Source: Candidatus Latescibacterota bacterium (GTDB lineage Bacteria > JAAXHH01). Taken from it: a stretch of 64,000 nt of DNA. Where the stretch lies: NCBI GenBank assembly GCA_022821085.1, contig JAJEEG010000006.1, positions 2,315,330 to 2,379,329 on the forward strand. The letters run 5' to 3'. Position 1 is the first letter of the stretch. Each line of letters starts with the position of its first letter. The notes under the pieces are model-generated. The model ran no database searches. It was not told where the DNA came from and was given only the letters and a program-made list of their open reading frames with translations. Both the position numbers and the translations under genes were made by a program. Shown here piece by piece: positions 22,094 through 25,854 of the stretch.

Positions 22094-22531
22094 TCACCGC
22101 CTGGTTCTGCCCGGCGCGATGCTCGAAGCTTCCTCCGCCAGCTTCTCGAATGCCTTGAAGTCGTCTGCAGAGAGCATGCCCTTCAGGCTTTCCTTGAACT
22201 GCTTCTCTCTTTCTTCCAGTTGTTCACGCAGCCAGCTCCAATCTTCGGTCTTCGTGGCCTGTTCGACCAGCGCGACCTTCTGAGAAGAGGCTTCCTTGAC
22301 CACGGCACGCAGCTGCAATACCTGGTCGTCTGTCGTATCCATCCGGATGCTCAGCGCGTGCCAGATCTGGGCGACGGGGAAGGTGCTCACCGCCCTCATT
22401 TGTTCCATCATGGCGCTGTTCTGGCCACGGCCGCCCATCCGGCCTAATCCGCGTCGCTGGGCGTCCGCGTCGTTTACGATGAATGCGGTCATGATCAGGC
22501 AGAGTATGGCCAGGTGGAGACGGTATTTCAT
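22094..22531 (-). CDS. Small periplasmic protein, Spy/CpxP-like
   Basis: Protein of 145 aa with a signal peptide (MKYRLHLAILCLIMTAFIVNDADA, cleavage before QRR). The mature part is helical and charged (WSWLREQLEEREKQFKESLKGMLSADDFKAFEKL). It resembles the Spy/CpxP/heavy-metal-sensor class in size and helix pattern, but no clear LTxxQ motif is present. GAAGGGAG 6 nt before the ATG gives a good ribosome-binding site. It is the last gene of the ECF sigma cluster and follows a strong hairpin that may separate its transcript from the gene before it. Confidence 0.68.
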   Translation of the reverse strand: MKYRLHLAILCLIMTAFIVNDADAQRRGLGRMGGRGQNSAMMEQMRAVSTFPVAQIWHALSIRMDTTDDQVLQLRAVVKEASSQKVALVEQATKTEDWSWLREQLEEREKQFKESLKGMLSADDFKAFEKLAEEASSIAPGRTRR

Positions 22532-22684: not shown

Positions 22685-23272
22685 TCAACGGCGGTCGCGA
22701 GATTCGCGGTTGCCGCGCCGCCCACGCATCCCGGCATCCCGGCGGCCGTCGCGACGGTCGCGGAAGGACTCACGCAGGTTCTCCTGCTGTTCCGGGGTCA
22801 GGACGTTCTTGAACTCGGCACGGAAGAGCGCGCTCCGCTCGAACACGCTGCCCTGGGCCGCCGATACGGCCGCGGCCAGCTCTTTCACCCTGTTGACGTC
22901 CGGGCTGGTCTCATTCATCAGTTCGCGAAGTTCTACCCGCGCGAGCCTCGAGTCGGCACGAAGCTGTATCATTTCCCGCGTGTAGGCGGAACGCAGCGTC
23001 TTGATCTTCTCTTGCTGCTCGTCTGTGAGTTCGAGTCCAGACATTGCTCTCCGGGACAGACGCGTCCGTGCGAAGCCCCTTCCGGCGAAGTCGTCGTCGG
23101 AGTTTTCGGCGATCTCGGCCGCAGGATCGGGCTGCGTGTGTTCGGCATCCGCGGAAGCCGTCTCCTGGTGTCCACTGCTTTCATGCCCGGTTCTGCCCAT
23201 CGCATCGAACCCCCAGGCCAGTACGACGATACTCAACGCGCCGGCGAAGATCCCTGATATCATCTTTTTCAT
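22685..23272 (-). CDS. Spy/CpxP family periplasmic protein (LTxxQ type)
   Basis: Protein of 195 aa with an N-terminal signal/anchor (MKKMISGIFAGALSIVVLAWGFDA). The mature part has two LTxxQ-type motifs, LTDEQQEKIKTLR and LTPEQQENLRESF, joined by long helices. This is the pattern of Spy/CpxP chaperones and of metal-sensor proteins. The C-terminus is Arg/Gly-rich. It has its own promoter at 23353-23381 that matches the one in front of the nearby ECF sigma gene, so it is a probable target of that sigma factor. Confidence 0.78.
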   Translation of the reverse strand: MKKMISGIFAGALSIVVLAWGFDAMGRTGHESSGHQETASADAEHTQPDPAAEIAENSDDDFAGRGFARTRLSRRAMSGLELTDEQQEKIKTLRSAYTREMIQLRADSRLARVELRELMNETSPDVNRVKELAAAVSAAQGSVFERSALFRAEFKNVLTPEQQENLRESFRDRRDGRRDAGMRGRRGNRESRDRR

Positions 23273-23352
23273 TTTGTAGCTCCCTTCGTGGTAAGACTGG
23301 CGGATTTGTGGACCGCGATCTCCGGAGATCGTTTTCGTGCTGCTCTACCAGA

Positions 23353-23381
23353 TTAGACGGGGGCCGGGTGAGGTATATTCC
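23353..23381 (-). promoter_or_regulatory. ECF-type promoter for the LTxxQ protein
   Basis: On the minus strand GGAATAT (23381-23375) and GTCTAA (23358-23353) are exactly 16 bp apart. The expected transcript begins about 75 nt before the start at 23272. The same arrangement precedes the sigma gene itself. Confidence 0.65.
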
Positions 23382-23509
23382 AACTTTCTTTACAACCTAC
23401 ATACACCTTGTGGCATGACATTCGCCCTGCGATTTGACATTCGCCCATCACCGGAGCAGTCAACCAACGTCCGGCCACGTACCCGCTGGCGAGCCGCCGG
23501 AACGACGGG

Positions 23510-24043
23510 TCAGTTTACGCCTCTGTTCCGACGCTCCTCTGAACGATCGCCGTCCTGTCGGTCGGCGCGGTCGCCTTCACCCTGGCCACTGCGGCCATCC
23601 GGTCCACCGCGCCCGCCCGGCCCACCTCGGCCGCCCGGCCCGTTGCGCCCGCGGCGTGGTTCGCGATCGCCATCCCGGCGGAACTCACGGATGCGTTCGC
23701 GGCGCTCGCGTATCTGTTTGATCCGCTCGAGTTGCGTTTCAGTAAGGATGGGTTCCAGGTCCCGGTGCAGCGAATCGACCAGGACCTGCATCTCCTGCCG
23801 GTGTCGCATGTAATTCTCCCGGAACCCGGGTTCATGCTCGCCCACCACTTCCCTGATCCGCTGCAGCTGTTCCTGGTCCGGCCGCACCATCCTGACCCAC
23901 CGTTCCACAAAACGTTCCCGGGTCACCTGGGGCGGCGGCTGCAGGCGGTCCCGGGCAAAAGCGCCCAGGATGAGCGCCCCACAGACCATGCCGATGATCA
24001 ACGTGGCCAGCAGAATGGCCGCGGTCTTCAGGTGGATGTTCAT
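23510..24043 (-). CDS. Membrane-anchored periplasmic sensor, CnrX/Spy-like
   Basis: Protein of 177 aa with one N-terminal transmembrane helix (about 7-29) and a periplasmic helical domain (about 40-120: RFVERWVRMVRPDQEQLQRIREVV and ILTETQLERIKQIRERRERI). The tail is an Arg/Gly/Asp repeat (GPGGRGGPGGRGGPDGR). The layout matches periplasmic heavy-metal or envelope sensors of the CnrX kind, which bind the anti-sigma factor. The gene overlaps the anti-sigma gene by ATGA (24040-24043), as cnrX sits with cnrY/cnrH. The ligand is unknown; no His/Met-rich metal site is obvious. Confidence 0.7.
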   Translation of the reverse strand: MNIHLKTAAILLATLIIGMVCGALILGAFARDRLQPPPQVTRERFVERWVRMVRPDQEQLQRIREVVGEHEPGFRENYMRHRQEMQVLVDSLHRDLEPILTETQLERIKQIRERRERIREFRRDGDREPRRGRNGPGGRGGPGGRGGPDGRSGQGEGDRADRQDGDRSEERRNRGVN

Positions 24044-24498
24044 AATTCGCCCTCCGATTCCAGCGCGAACCGCGCGTCGTACAGGTCTTCAGGGTAAAGT
24101 TCCTCGGTCAGTCCGAACGACGTGTTGATTGAGACGCTATCGGACGTGGCCAGGTTGTAGGTCAACAGCAGGACGGCGGCGACCGAAGCGGCCATCGCCA
24201 CTCTGCGGAACATGAGGGACAGCGCGTCCTCGAAGCCAGGCGTTGCTTCGACATCGGAGTTCGACGCCTTCAAGGTCGCTGATTCCGATGCCAGGCGTTC
24301 CATGACGCGCTGGGAGAAATCCGCCCGGAACGAGGGCGACTCCTGGTTTTCGACCAGGCCGCGCATTCGGACCAGCCGTTCGTATTCGTCGCGCAGGCCG
24401 GGGTTACGCCGCAAAGCCGCATCCAGACGGCTTTGTTCACCGGGCGTCAGGGACGAATCCAGCGACCGGTAAAGCAGATCCAGTTCAGACCGTTTCAT
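24040..24498 (-). CDS. Putative anti-sigma factor, single transmembrane helix
   Basis: Protein of 152 aa from ATG 24498, chosen because GGGAG lies 7 nt before it. The N-terminal part (MKRSELDLLYRSLDSSLTPGEQSRLDAALRRNP) resembles the cytoplasmic sigma-binding helices of RseA-like and zinc-finger anti-sigma factors, but the HxxxCxxC zinc motif is absent. One membrane helix lies at about 99-117, then a short periplasmic tail. The start overlaps the sigma gene by 14 bp and the stop overlaps the sensor gene, so the three are translated together. Confidence 0.72.
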   Translation of the reverse strand: MKRSELDLLYRSLDSSLTPGEQSRLDAALRRNPGLRDEYERLVRMRGLVENQESPSFRADFSQRVMERLASESATLKASNSDVEATPGFEDALSLMFRRVAMAASVAAVLLLTYNLATSDSVSINTSFGLTEELYPEDLYDARFALESEGEL

Positions 24499-25075
24499 GG
24501 ACAAGCTCCCTGTTGGTGGATAGTATCATATGTTTCAGTTTCTCCTGGGACCTCCTCAGGCGGGACAATACCGTCCCTAATGGCAAGCCCAGGATCTCGG
24601 CGGTTTCTTTCGTCGAGTAGCCCTCCATCAGCCGGAGTACGATCACGGAACGGAATTCGGGCTTCAGACGGTTCAGCGCCGCCTGAATCCGGTCGGCCGT
24701 GTCGTCGTATTCGGCGCTGGCCGCCGGGTCGGCATAATCCAGTTCAGGTGCGTCGTTTTCCCTGCCCGGCGGCGTGAAGGGGACGAAGATCGAACGGCGC
24801 CGGCGTTTTCTCAGCTCGGTGAGCGACAGGTTGATGGCGATCCGGGTCAGGTAGGTACCCACCGACGCCTGACCGCGGAATCCACGTAAGGCTCGATAGA
24901 ATCGGATGAAAGTCTCCTGACCCGCGTCCTCCGCTTCGGGGGTGTTCCCCAGCATGCGGATGACGACGGACGCCACGCGGCCTTCGTATCGTTCCACCAG
25001 GGTGCGAAAGGCGTCCTCGCTGCCACTGCGGGCGGCGTCGACCAGTGCTTCGTCCGTCAAGGCGTCTTCCCTCAT
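24485..25075 (-). CDS. ECF-type RNA polymerase sigma factor
   Basis: Protein of 196 aa with only regions sigma2 (about 20-90, including QETFIRFYRALRGFRGQASVGTYLTRIAINLSLTELRK) and sigma4 (about 130-185, including LRLMEGYSTKETAEILGLPLGTVLSRLRRSQEKLK). This is the RpoE-like two-domain layout. It directs polymerase to envelope-stress promoters. Its gene is preceded by a promoter of GGAATAA/GTCTAA type, repeated in front of the LTxxQ gene, which points to self-activation and a small local regulon. Confidence 0.93.
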   Translation of the reverse strand: MREDALTDEALVDAARSGSEDAFRTLVERYEGRVASVVIRMLGNTPEAEDAGQETFIRFYRALRGFRGQASVGTYLTRIAINLSLTELRKRRRRSIFVPFTPPGRENDAPELDYADPAASAEYDDTADRIQAALNRLKPEFRSVIVLRLMEGYSTKETAEILGLPLGTVLSRLRRSQEKLKHMILSTNRELVHETV

Positions 25076-25129
25076 TCCGCTTTCCTCGAATGGCCGTATG
25101 GCGGTCCAGACCGATGCCGCTGCCTAAAG

Positions 25130-25160
25130 ATTAGACCCCACCGGCGCCGATTTTATTCCC
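25130..25160 (-). promoter_or_regulatory. ECF-type promoter in front of the sigma gene
   Basis: On the minus strand GGAATAA (25159-25153) and GTCTAA (25136-25131) are exactly 16 bp apart. They end 55 bp before the sigma start codon. The match with the promoter at 23353-23381 suggests autoregulation. Confidence 0.68.
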
Positions 25161-25260: not shown

Positions 25261-25854
25261 GTGCGAGGTCTATGTTTAGCGATCGCGTGTTTCTGTTCGC
25301 CGCTATGGGCCGAAGGGCAGGCGAACGTCAGGCTGGGCGGTGGGCCCGGCATGCCGATCGGTGACCTGGCGGATGGTCTGGAAACCGTCGGCCCTTCGTT
25401 TCTGGCTGGCCTGGCAATTCCCGTCGATATAGGATACTTCCTGTTGATTGAGGGACATCACAGTCGGTTCGGTATCGACGAGGAAGCGATGCTGGATCCG
25501 AATGAAGGGGTGAAATCAGATGCCGCCACAAAGCTGACAGGCGGCAACGTGGGTCTGTTGATTGAGGGGGTCGCGGATCCCGTGGGATTCTATGGCCACG
25601 GGGGCGTGGGATGGACCAGAGGCACCAGAGGCACCAGAAGCACCGTCAAGGCCGGACGCTCTGTCGAAGGTGAAGACGCGCGGACCGGTACGGACGACCA
25701 TTCGTTCACGTTCGTGATCGGTCTGGGGGTCAACGTATCCATCAATGACAACCTGGGGTTGACAATTAACGTCCGGTACAACCATGCGCGCGACATATTC
25801 GATGATCGAGCCCAGTGGACACCCGTTACCGTCTCCGCGGTAATACGCCTGTAG
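25261..25854 (+). CDS. Probable outer-membrane beta-barrel protein
   Basis: Protein of 197 aa from a GTG start at 25261 with AAGGAG 7 nt before it. A short signal peptide (MRGLCLAIACFCSPLWAEGQA) is followed by alternating hydrophobic strands such as VRLGGGPGMPIGDLAD, LSINVRY-type segments near the end and a final Leu (VSAVIRL), as in small OmpW/OmpA-like barrels. Three 9-bp repeats (25615-25641) encode RGTRGTRST in a likely surface loop. No specific family recognised. It is divergent from the sigma gene across 185 bp. Confidence 0.65.
   Translation: MRGLCLAIACFCSPLWAEGQANVRLGGGPGMPIGDLADGLETVGPSFLAGLAIPVDIGYFLLIEGHHSRFGIDEEAMLDPNEGVKSDAATKLTGGNVGLLIEGVADPVGFYGHGGVGWTRGTRGTRSTVKAGRSVEGEDARTGTDDHSFTFVIGLGVNVSINDNLGLTINVRYNHARDIFDDRAQWTPVTVSAVIRL

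Follow-up and report, generated by a model that had tools for sequence, protein, structure and literature searches.

An ECF sigma factor cluster of Latescibacterota with two matching promoters and Spy-like proteins: a probable self-activating envelope-stress circuit

Results

Organization of the cluster

The window, which is the whole stretch of 64,000 nucleotides that was analysed, carries on its minus strand, in this order, P1, an ECF sigma factor gene, an anti-sigma gene, a third gene, P2, an LTxxQ protein gene and a gene for a small exported protein. The features are as follows.

25131-25159, minus strand: P1, GGAATAAAATCGGCGCCGGTGGGGTCTAA, predicted sigma-dependent promoter of the sigma operon, exact motif match (-35 GGAATA at 25154-25159, -10 GTCTAA at 25131-25136)
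24485-25075, minus strand: ECF sigma factor, 196 aa
24040-24498, minus strand: putative anti-sigma factor, 152 aa
23510-24043, minus strand: third gene, Spy-like protein of 177 aa with an N-terminal membrane anchor
23353-23381, minus strand: P2, GGAATATACCTCACCCGGCCCCCGTCTAA, predicted sigma-dependent promoter of the LTxxQ gene, exact motif match (-35 GGAATA at 23376-23381, -10 GTCTAA at 23353-23358)
23316-23331, no strand assigned: perfect palindrome CGATCTCCGGAGATCG in the leader of the LTxxQ gene
22685-23272, minus strand: secreted LTxxQ (Spy/CpxP-like) protein, 195 aa
22582-22615, minus strand: GC-rich hairpin downstream of the LTxxQ gene, before the next gene
22094-22531, minus strand: small exported helical protein, 145 aa, candidate regulon member

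The sigma and anti-sigma genes overlap by 14 bp and the anti-sigma and third genes by 4 bp, as the original prediction had held, and neither overlap varies among the 12 genus genomes. The gene order and the flanking enolase-family, outer-membrane-barrel and flavin-reductase genes are syntenic in nearly all genus genomes. In most genus genomes a divergent outer-membrane beta-barrel gene (25261-25854) lies across the same intergenic region from the sigma gene, and the exact sigma motif was not found in its direction.

Sigma factor and anti-sigma factor

The sigma factor matched Sigma70_r2 (6e-18) and Sigma70_r4_2 (3.5e-12) and scored 102 bits with the sigma70-ECF model TIGR02937 (cut-off 42.9). 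It has the layout of an ECF (group 4) sigma factor, with Sigma-70 regions 2 and 4 only in about 200 aa. Against the RpoE equivalog TIGR02939 it scored 104 bits, below the cut-off of 236, and it is not RpoE proper. A first look at the window's genome gave 20 ECF-like candidates.

The anti-sigma protein is composed of a cytoplasmic helical domain, one predicted membrane helix (within residues 89-121) and a poorly conserved external tail of about 30 residues. Its family profile (A2) matched RsiW (4.6e-4) and RseA (0.07), and a Foldseek search with its model matched RsiW (probability 1.00, TM to target 0.72, E 0.05) and MucA (probability 0.84); the profile probability for CnrY was 0.9%. With Pfam RseA_N the protein scored 19.3 bits, below the cut-off of 24, and is not RseA proper. 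From profiles and model, it resembles RsiW, MucA and RseA, with the fold of a class I anti-sigma domain (ASDI), and is a putative inhibitor of its cognate sigma factor. The A2 family is widespread and scarcely covered by Pfam; among 47 members, five matched zf-HC2 and two matched RseA_N at E<0.01. Class I anti-sigma domains adjoin just 6% of Bacteroidetes ECFs (PMC7406223), and an anti-sigma family missed by Pfam could explain part of this figure.

The third protein resembles Spy

The third protein has an N-terminal membrane helix with the conserved small residues G18 and G22; its periplasmic part is helical and contains Q59 and a turn of the LTxxQ type. Its helices span residues 3-33, 42-53, 57-96 and 102-127. 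Only G18, G22, L100 and Q104 are invariant in its family. Its own sequence had no Pfam match, and 14 of 48 family members matched Pfam LTXXQ at E<0.01. The family profile (A1) gave probabilities of 92% for E. coli Spy, 16% for CpxP, 3% for CnrX and 95% for the LTxxQ effector of the genus. Foldseek with the model of the third protein returned nothing useful; therefore, the Spy assignment rests on sequence profiles.

This protein had originally been taken for a CnrX-like sensor. The ligands of CnrX are a His/Met/Glu set, and a conserved metal-ligand set, or ligands of the CnrX type, were not found in the family or in the genus. All genus proteins keep H70 and H81, the wider family shares no His, and in four genomes the single HxxxM of the genus proteins has lost its Met. 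We rejected the CnrX-like metal sensor because of the profile probabilities and the lack of conserved ligands. The gene keeps its third position across phyla, and we propose that its product is a sensor or feedback partner.

The LTxxQ gene, its leader and the downstream gene

The LTxxQ protein scored 33.6 bits with Pfam LTXXQ (cut-off 24.3), which places it in the Spy/CpxP family, and 40.7 bits with Metal_resist (cut-off 29.2). We propose this secreted protein as the effector of the regulon. Its N-terminal extension is variable in length across the genus and contains 0-8 His, with GHAE-type repeats in some species. The leader palindrome was unique in the genome at up to one mismatch and was kept in 12 of 12 genus genomes, in 10 of them identically. 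As an RNA structure it was rejected, with a stability not above that of shuffled sequences and no Rfam match; a second regulator might bind it as an operator.

The hairpin behind the LTxxQ gene has arms conserved in the genus and a z of -3.2 against shuffles (101-nt region), without a clear T run, and is possibly a partial terminator or processing site. The small exported protein gene that follows is syntenic in the genus. Several Spy-like outputs had been predicted for the cluster; this was overstated and reduces to the secreted LTxxQ protein with its own promoter and the anchored Spy-like protein in the sigma operon. The small exported protein has no upstream motif, no LTXXQ match and a Spy profile match of just 1.3%.

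Promoter motif in the window and the genome

A pattern search for GGAATAW-N16-GTCTAA found exactly two matches in the window, P1 and P2, both on the minus strand and with an identical spacing of 16 bp from GGAATAW to GTCTAA, and zero matches after shuffling the window 100 times. When three mismatches were allowed, the window held 17 matches against 21 expected, which is background; therefore, the motif is informative only in near-exact form. In the 3.75-Mb genome, scanned by pattern searches with set mismatch numbers rather than by a weight matrix, GGAATA-N17-GTCTAA had two perfect matches, P1 and P2, and three more with one mismatch, and GGAAT-N18-GTCTAA had three matches. The two sites, at 25131-25159 and 23353-23381, and their exact 16-bp spacers thus agree with the original prediction, which gave 25130-25160 for the first. 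A genome scan had been suggested along with it, a motif at random frequency being named as grounds for refutation; both perfect matches returned by that scan lie in the cluster, and the prediction is not refuted on this count. Two other sites considered as further regulon members in this genome were rejected: that at C1:719150 reads antisense into a gene, and that at C1:156594 lies inside a gene.

Conservation of the promoters within the genus

In aligned upstream regions, P1 and P2 are kept in all 12 genus genomes. Eleven are exact at GGAAT and GTCTAA in both sites, and G009 has one substitution per site. Conservation across the 12 genomes was 0.986 in the boxes versus 0.70 in the spacer for P2, and 0.986-1.00 versus 0.84 for P1. 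A scan of these genomes with GGAAT-N18-GTCTAA gave 31 sites, and the reversed pattern gave 2. P1 and P2 of 11 genomes make up 22 of the 31, and the other nine lie outside the cluster. Four of these nine stand before the same gene, for a peptidase-MA/PD40 beta-propeller protein, in four species (G004, G007, G008 and G011; loci L110, L114, L117 and L131). This site has decayed in G010, the region is deleted or divergent in most other species, and the motif is absent from the gene in the window's genome; the gene is a lineage-variable regulon member. An identical 29-bp motif site, closely similar to the sigma operon promoter, occurs in G003 (L134:1501-1529) and G006 (L129), and the G003 copy stands upstream of an SRAP-type gene.

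Recurrence outside the genus

We compared 73 relatives of the sigma factor (48-58% identity) from Bacteroidota, KSB1, Zixibacteria, Calditrichota, Gemmatimonadota, Aminicenantes, Fibrobacteria and other groups. They were chosen by protein similarity alone and not by motif, which leaves the DNA motif as independent evidence. Of the testable loci outside the genus, 58 of 71 had the motif in the 300 bp before the sigma match, and 21 of 60 had a second copy in the 340 bp that follow the third gene; since some of these loci are near-identical, the counts are not fully independent. Among culturable relatives, Roseithermus (locus L058) carries the P1 motif. About two thirds of the testable loci lack a P2. 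Reversed and complemented control patterns gave 0 in both regions of the same loci, and the motif rate elsewhere in those loci, computed from the counts, predicts about 0.4 matches in each class. The cross-group consensus is GGAATAAA-N12/13-TTGTCTAA, with GTCAAA as an alternative -10.

The gene behind the second site outside the genus often encodes an LTxxQ/Metal_resist protein. At L092:5516-6994, L074:5513-6955 and L044:1935-3068, the second-promoter genes encode proteins with 4-6 LTxxQ motifs in periods of about 56-66 residues and with a C-terminal type IX/Por secretion sorting domain; these are possibly multi-Spy proteins exported from the cell. Because the two-promoter layout recurs in distant phyla, the circuit looks, at the level of sequence, like an ancient and conserved response to envelope stress and not like a local peculiarity. 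The literature searched, with the main ECF classification papers outside its scope, held no description of this cross-phylum shared promoter and two-promoter layout.

Discussion

The cluster shares with RpoE-RseA of E. coli, AlgU-MucA and SigW-RsiW an ECF sigma factor, a class-I-type membrane anti-sigma factor, predicted self-activation and similar promoter boxes, which in those systems are GGAACTT ... GTCTAA. The -35 form GGAACTT is quoted in PMC8103513. Unlike those systems, the -35 element here is GGAATA(A) and the third gene is Spy-like; furthermore, unlike in RpoE-RseA, no RseB-type gene stands beside the sigma gene, and the sigma factor falls far below the RpoE equivalog cut-off. With the Spy/CpxP/ZraP proteins (LTxxQ family) the cluster has in common an LTxxQ protein that passes both LTXXQ and Metal_resist and a third protein whose family matches Spy. 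E. coli places spy under the two-component systems CpxAR and BaeSR (PMC13114119), whereas control here appears to lie with the adjacent ECF sigma factor.

The closest tested system is CirY/CirZ-Spy of Phocaeicola vulgatus, a locus linked to envelope stress (PMC13114119). The order of sigma, anti-sigma and Spy-like genes is the same; the three are co-transcribed there and, from their overlaps, predicted to be so here. When cirZ is deleted, the strongest increases are in cirY, the co-transcribed spy and two downstream genes described as transcriptionally unlinked (PMC13114119), as would be expected of the P1/P2 layout. Unlike here, those downstream genes encode a carbohydrate-binding hydrolase and a glucosaminidase/LysM protein rather than an LTxxQ protein, and the text of that paper gives no promoter motif (PMC13114119); the comparison covers gene order and predicted regulation.

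In this study, the sequence evidence strongly supports a self-activating sigma circuit, and P1 and P2 are very probably promoters of this sigma factor. The genes, their overlaps, the promoter elements and their conservation in the genus and in distant groups can be read from the DNA; we infer that the sigma factor reads P1 and P2, that the anti-sigma factor is released, that the third protein is a sensor, and that the stimulus is misfolding rather than metal. Considering all the above results, a self-activating envelope-stress circuit that includes an anchored Spy-like sensor is the best overall explanation, with a rough probability of 0.78. At rest, the membrane-bound class-I-type anti-sigma factor would hold the ECF sigma factor, and periplasmic stress would free it. 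Freed sigma factor would then act at P1, giving more sigma factor, anti-sigma factor and membrane-anchored Spy-like protein, and at P2, giving the secreted LTxxQ chaperone. The anchored Spy-like protein, most likely the folding-stress sensor in such a model, would keep the anti-sigma factor inhibitory while unoccupied and let go of it when titrated by unfolded clients; a later rise of anchored and secreted Spy-like protein would shut the response off. The coupling of chaperone occupancy to the anti-sigma factor through the anchored protein is the weakest step of this model, and taken by itself we would put the sensor role at slightly short of even odds.

A tentative but serious alternative keeps the same two-promoter circuit and makes the third protein only a tethered chaperone effector or late feedback component, with the anti-sigma factor released by regulated proteolysis or by sensing through its own tail. 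The anti-sigma factor resembles proteins of the RseA/RsiW/MucA type, which are controlled by proteolysis, and Spy in E. coli is an effector and not a sensor. Likewise, the co-transcribed spy of P. vulgatus was described as a chaperone in a study with a sensor role outside its tests (PMC13114119). However, the external tail of the anti-sigma factor has only about 30 poorly conserved residues, and the third protein has a membrane anchor of its own, in which glycines are conserved. The third gene also overlaps the anti-sigma gene in 12 of 12 genus genomes and remains third across phyla; the anchor, the overlap and the fixed position fit a partner of the anti-sigma factor.

A metal-sensing circuit like CnrYXH of Cupriavidus metallidurans (pMOL28), in which the third protein would bind metal and the LTxxQ protein would buffer it, is highly unlikely. 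CnrYXH likewise combines an ECF sigma factor, a membrane anti-sigma factor and a membrane-anchored helical periplasmic partner, and the Metal_resist score above cut-off, the 0-8 His of the LTxxQ extension in different species and the genus-wide H70 and H81 would suit metal binding. However, the order there is cnrY-cnrX-cnrH, the profiles matched neither CnrX nor CnrY (3% and 0.9%), no ligand set is conserved, His conservation fails in the wider family and the HxxxM loses its Met within the genus, and no RND efflux genes adjoin the cluster. The same genome has a separate sigma2 cluster (L149:2037-5878; G000:C1 ~2216036-2219877) with sigma2, a zinc-finger anti-sigma factor, an LTxxQ/Metal_resist protein and an RND-type adaptor (HlyD/CusB-type), and it is this cluster, not that of the window, which resembles a metal or efflux circuit. 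Cross-talk between the two was rejected: the near-motif before the sigma2 cluster (G000:C1 ~2216000-2219900) is absent in the other 11 genomes and was taken as chance. Thus, of the self-activating envelope or metal stress circuit first predicted, what stands is a local and probably self-activating ECF regulon whose second promoter precedes a Spy/CpxP-like gene, and the metal part is backed by nothing more than the LTxxQ/Metal_resist family name. An origin of the two motifs by chance, or a role other than as promoters, is scarcely credible: P1 and P2 are predicted from sequence and the motif sinks to background at three mismatches, but the box/spacer contrast over 12 genomes and the recurrence outside the genus against zero in controls speak against it.

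ECF self-activation and ECF-controlled Spy-type chaperones are already known. A wider reading, which we consider unlikely as a whole, is a widespread ECF module of Bacteroidota, KSB1, Zixibacteria, Calditrichota, Gemmatimonadota, Latescibacterota and others that would unite an anchored Spy-like misfolding sensor, a class I anti-sigma factor missed by Pfam, the shared GGAATAAA-N12/13-TTGTCTAA promoter and a second promoter adding lineage-specific Spy-type chaperones. If true, it would supply anti-sigma factors for some Bacteroidetes ECFs reported without one (PMC7406223). Reading the cluster as a self-activating envelope-stress circuit also corrects, for such genes, a metal-sensor label attracted by the family name. 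If the anchored Spy-like protein is the sensor, it would couple chaperone availability to transcription in a simple way, like CpxP but acting on an anti-sigma factor. Furthermore, a promoter motif and gene order common to sigma factors of many poorly studied phyla form a testable rule, and the motif offers a direct route to predicting envelope-stress regulons in unculturable bacteria.
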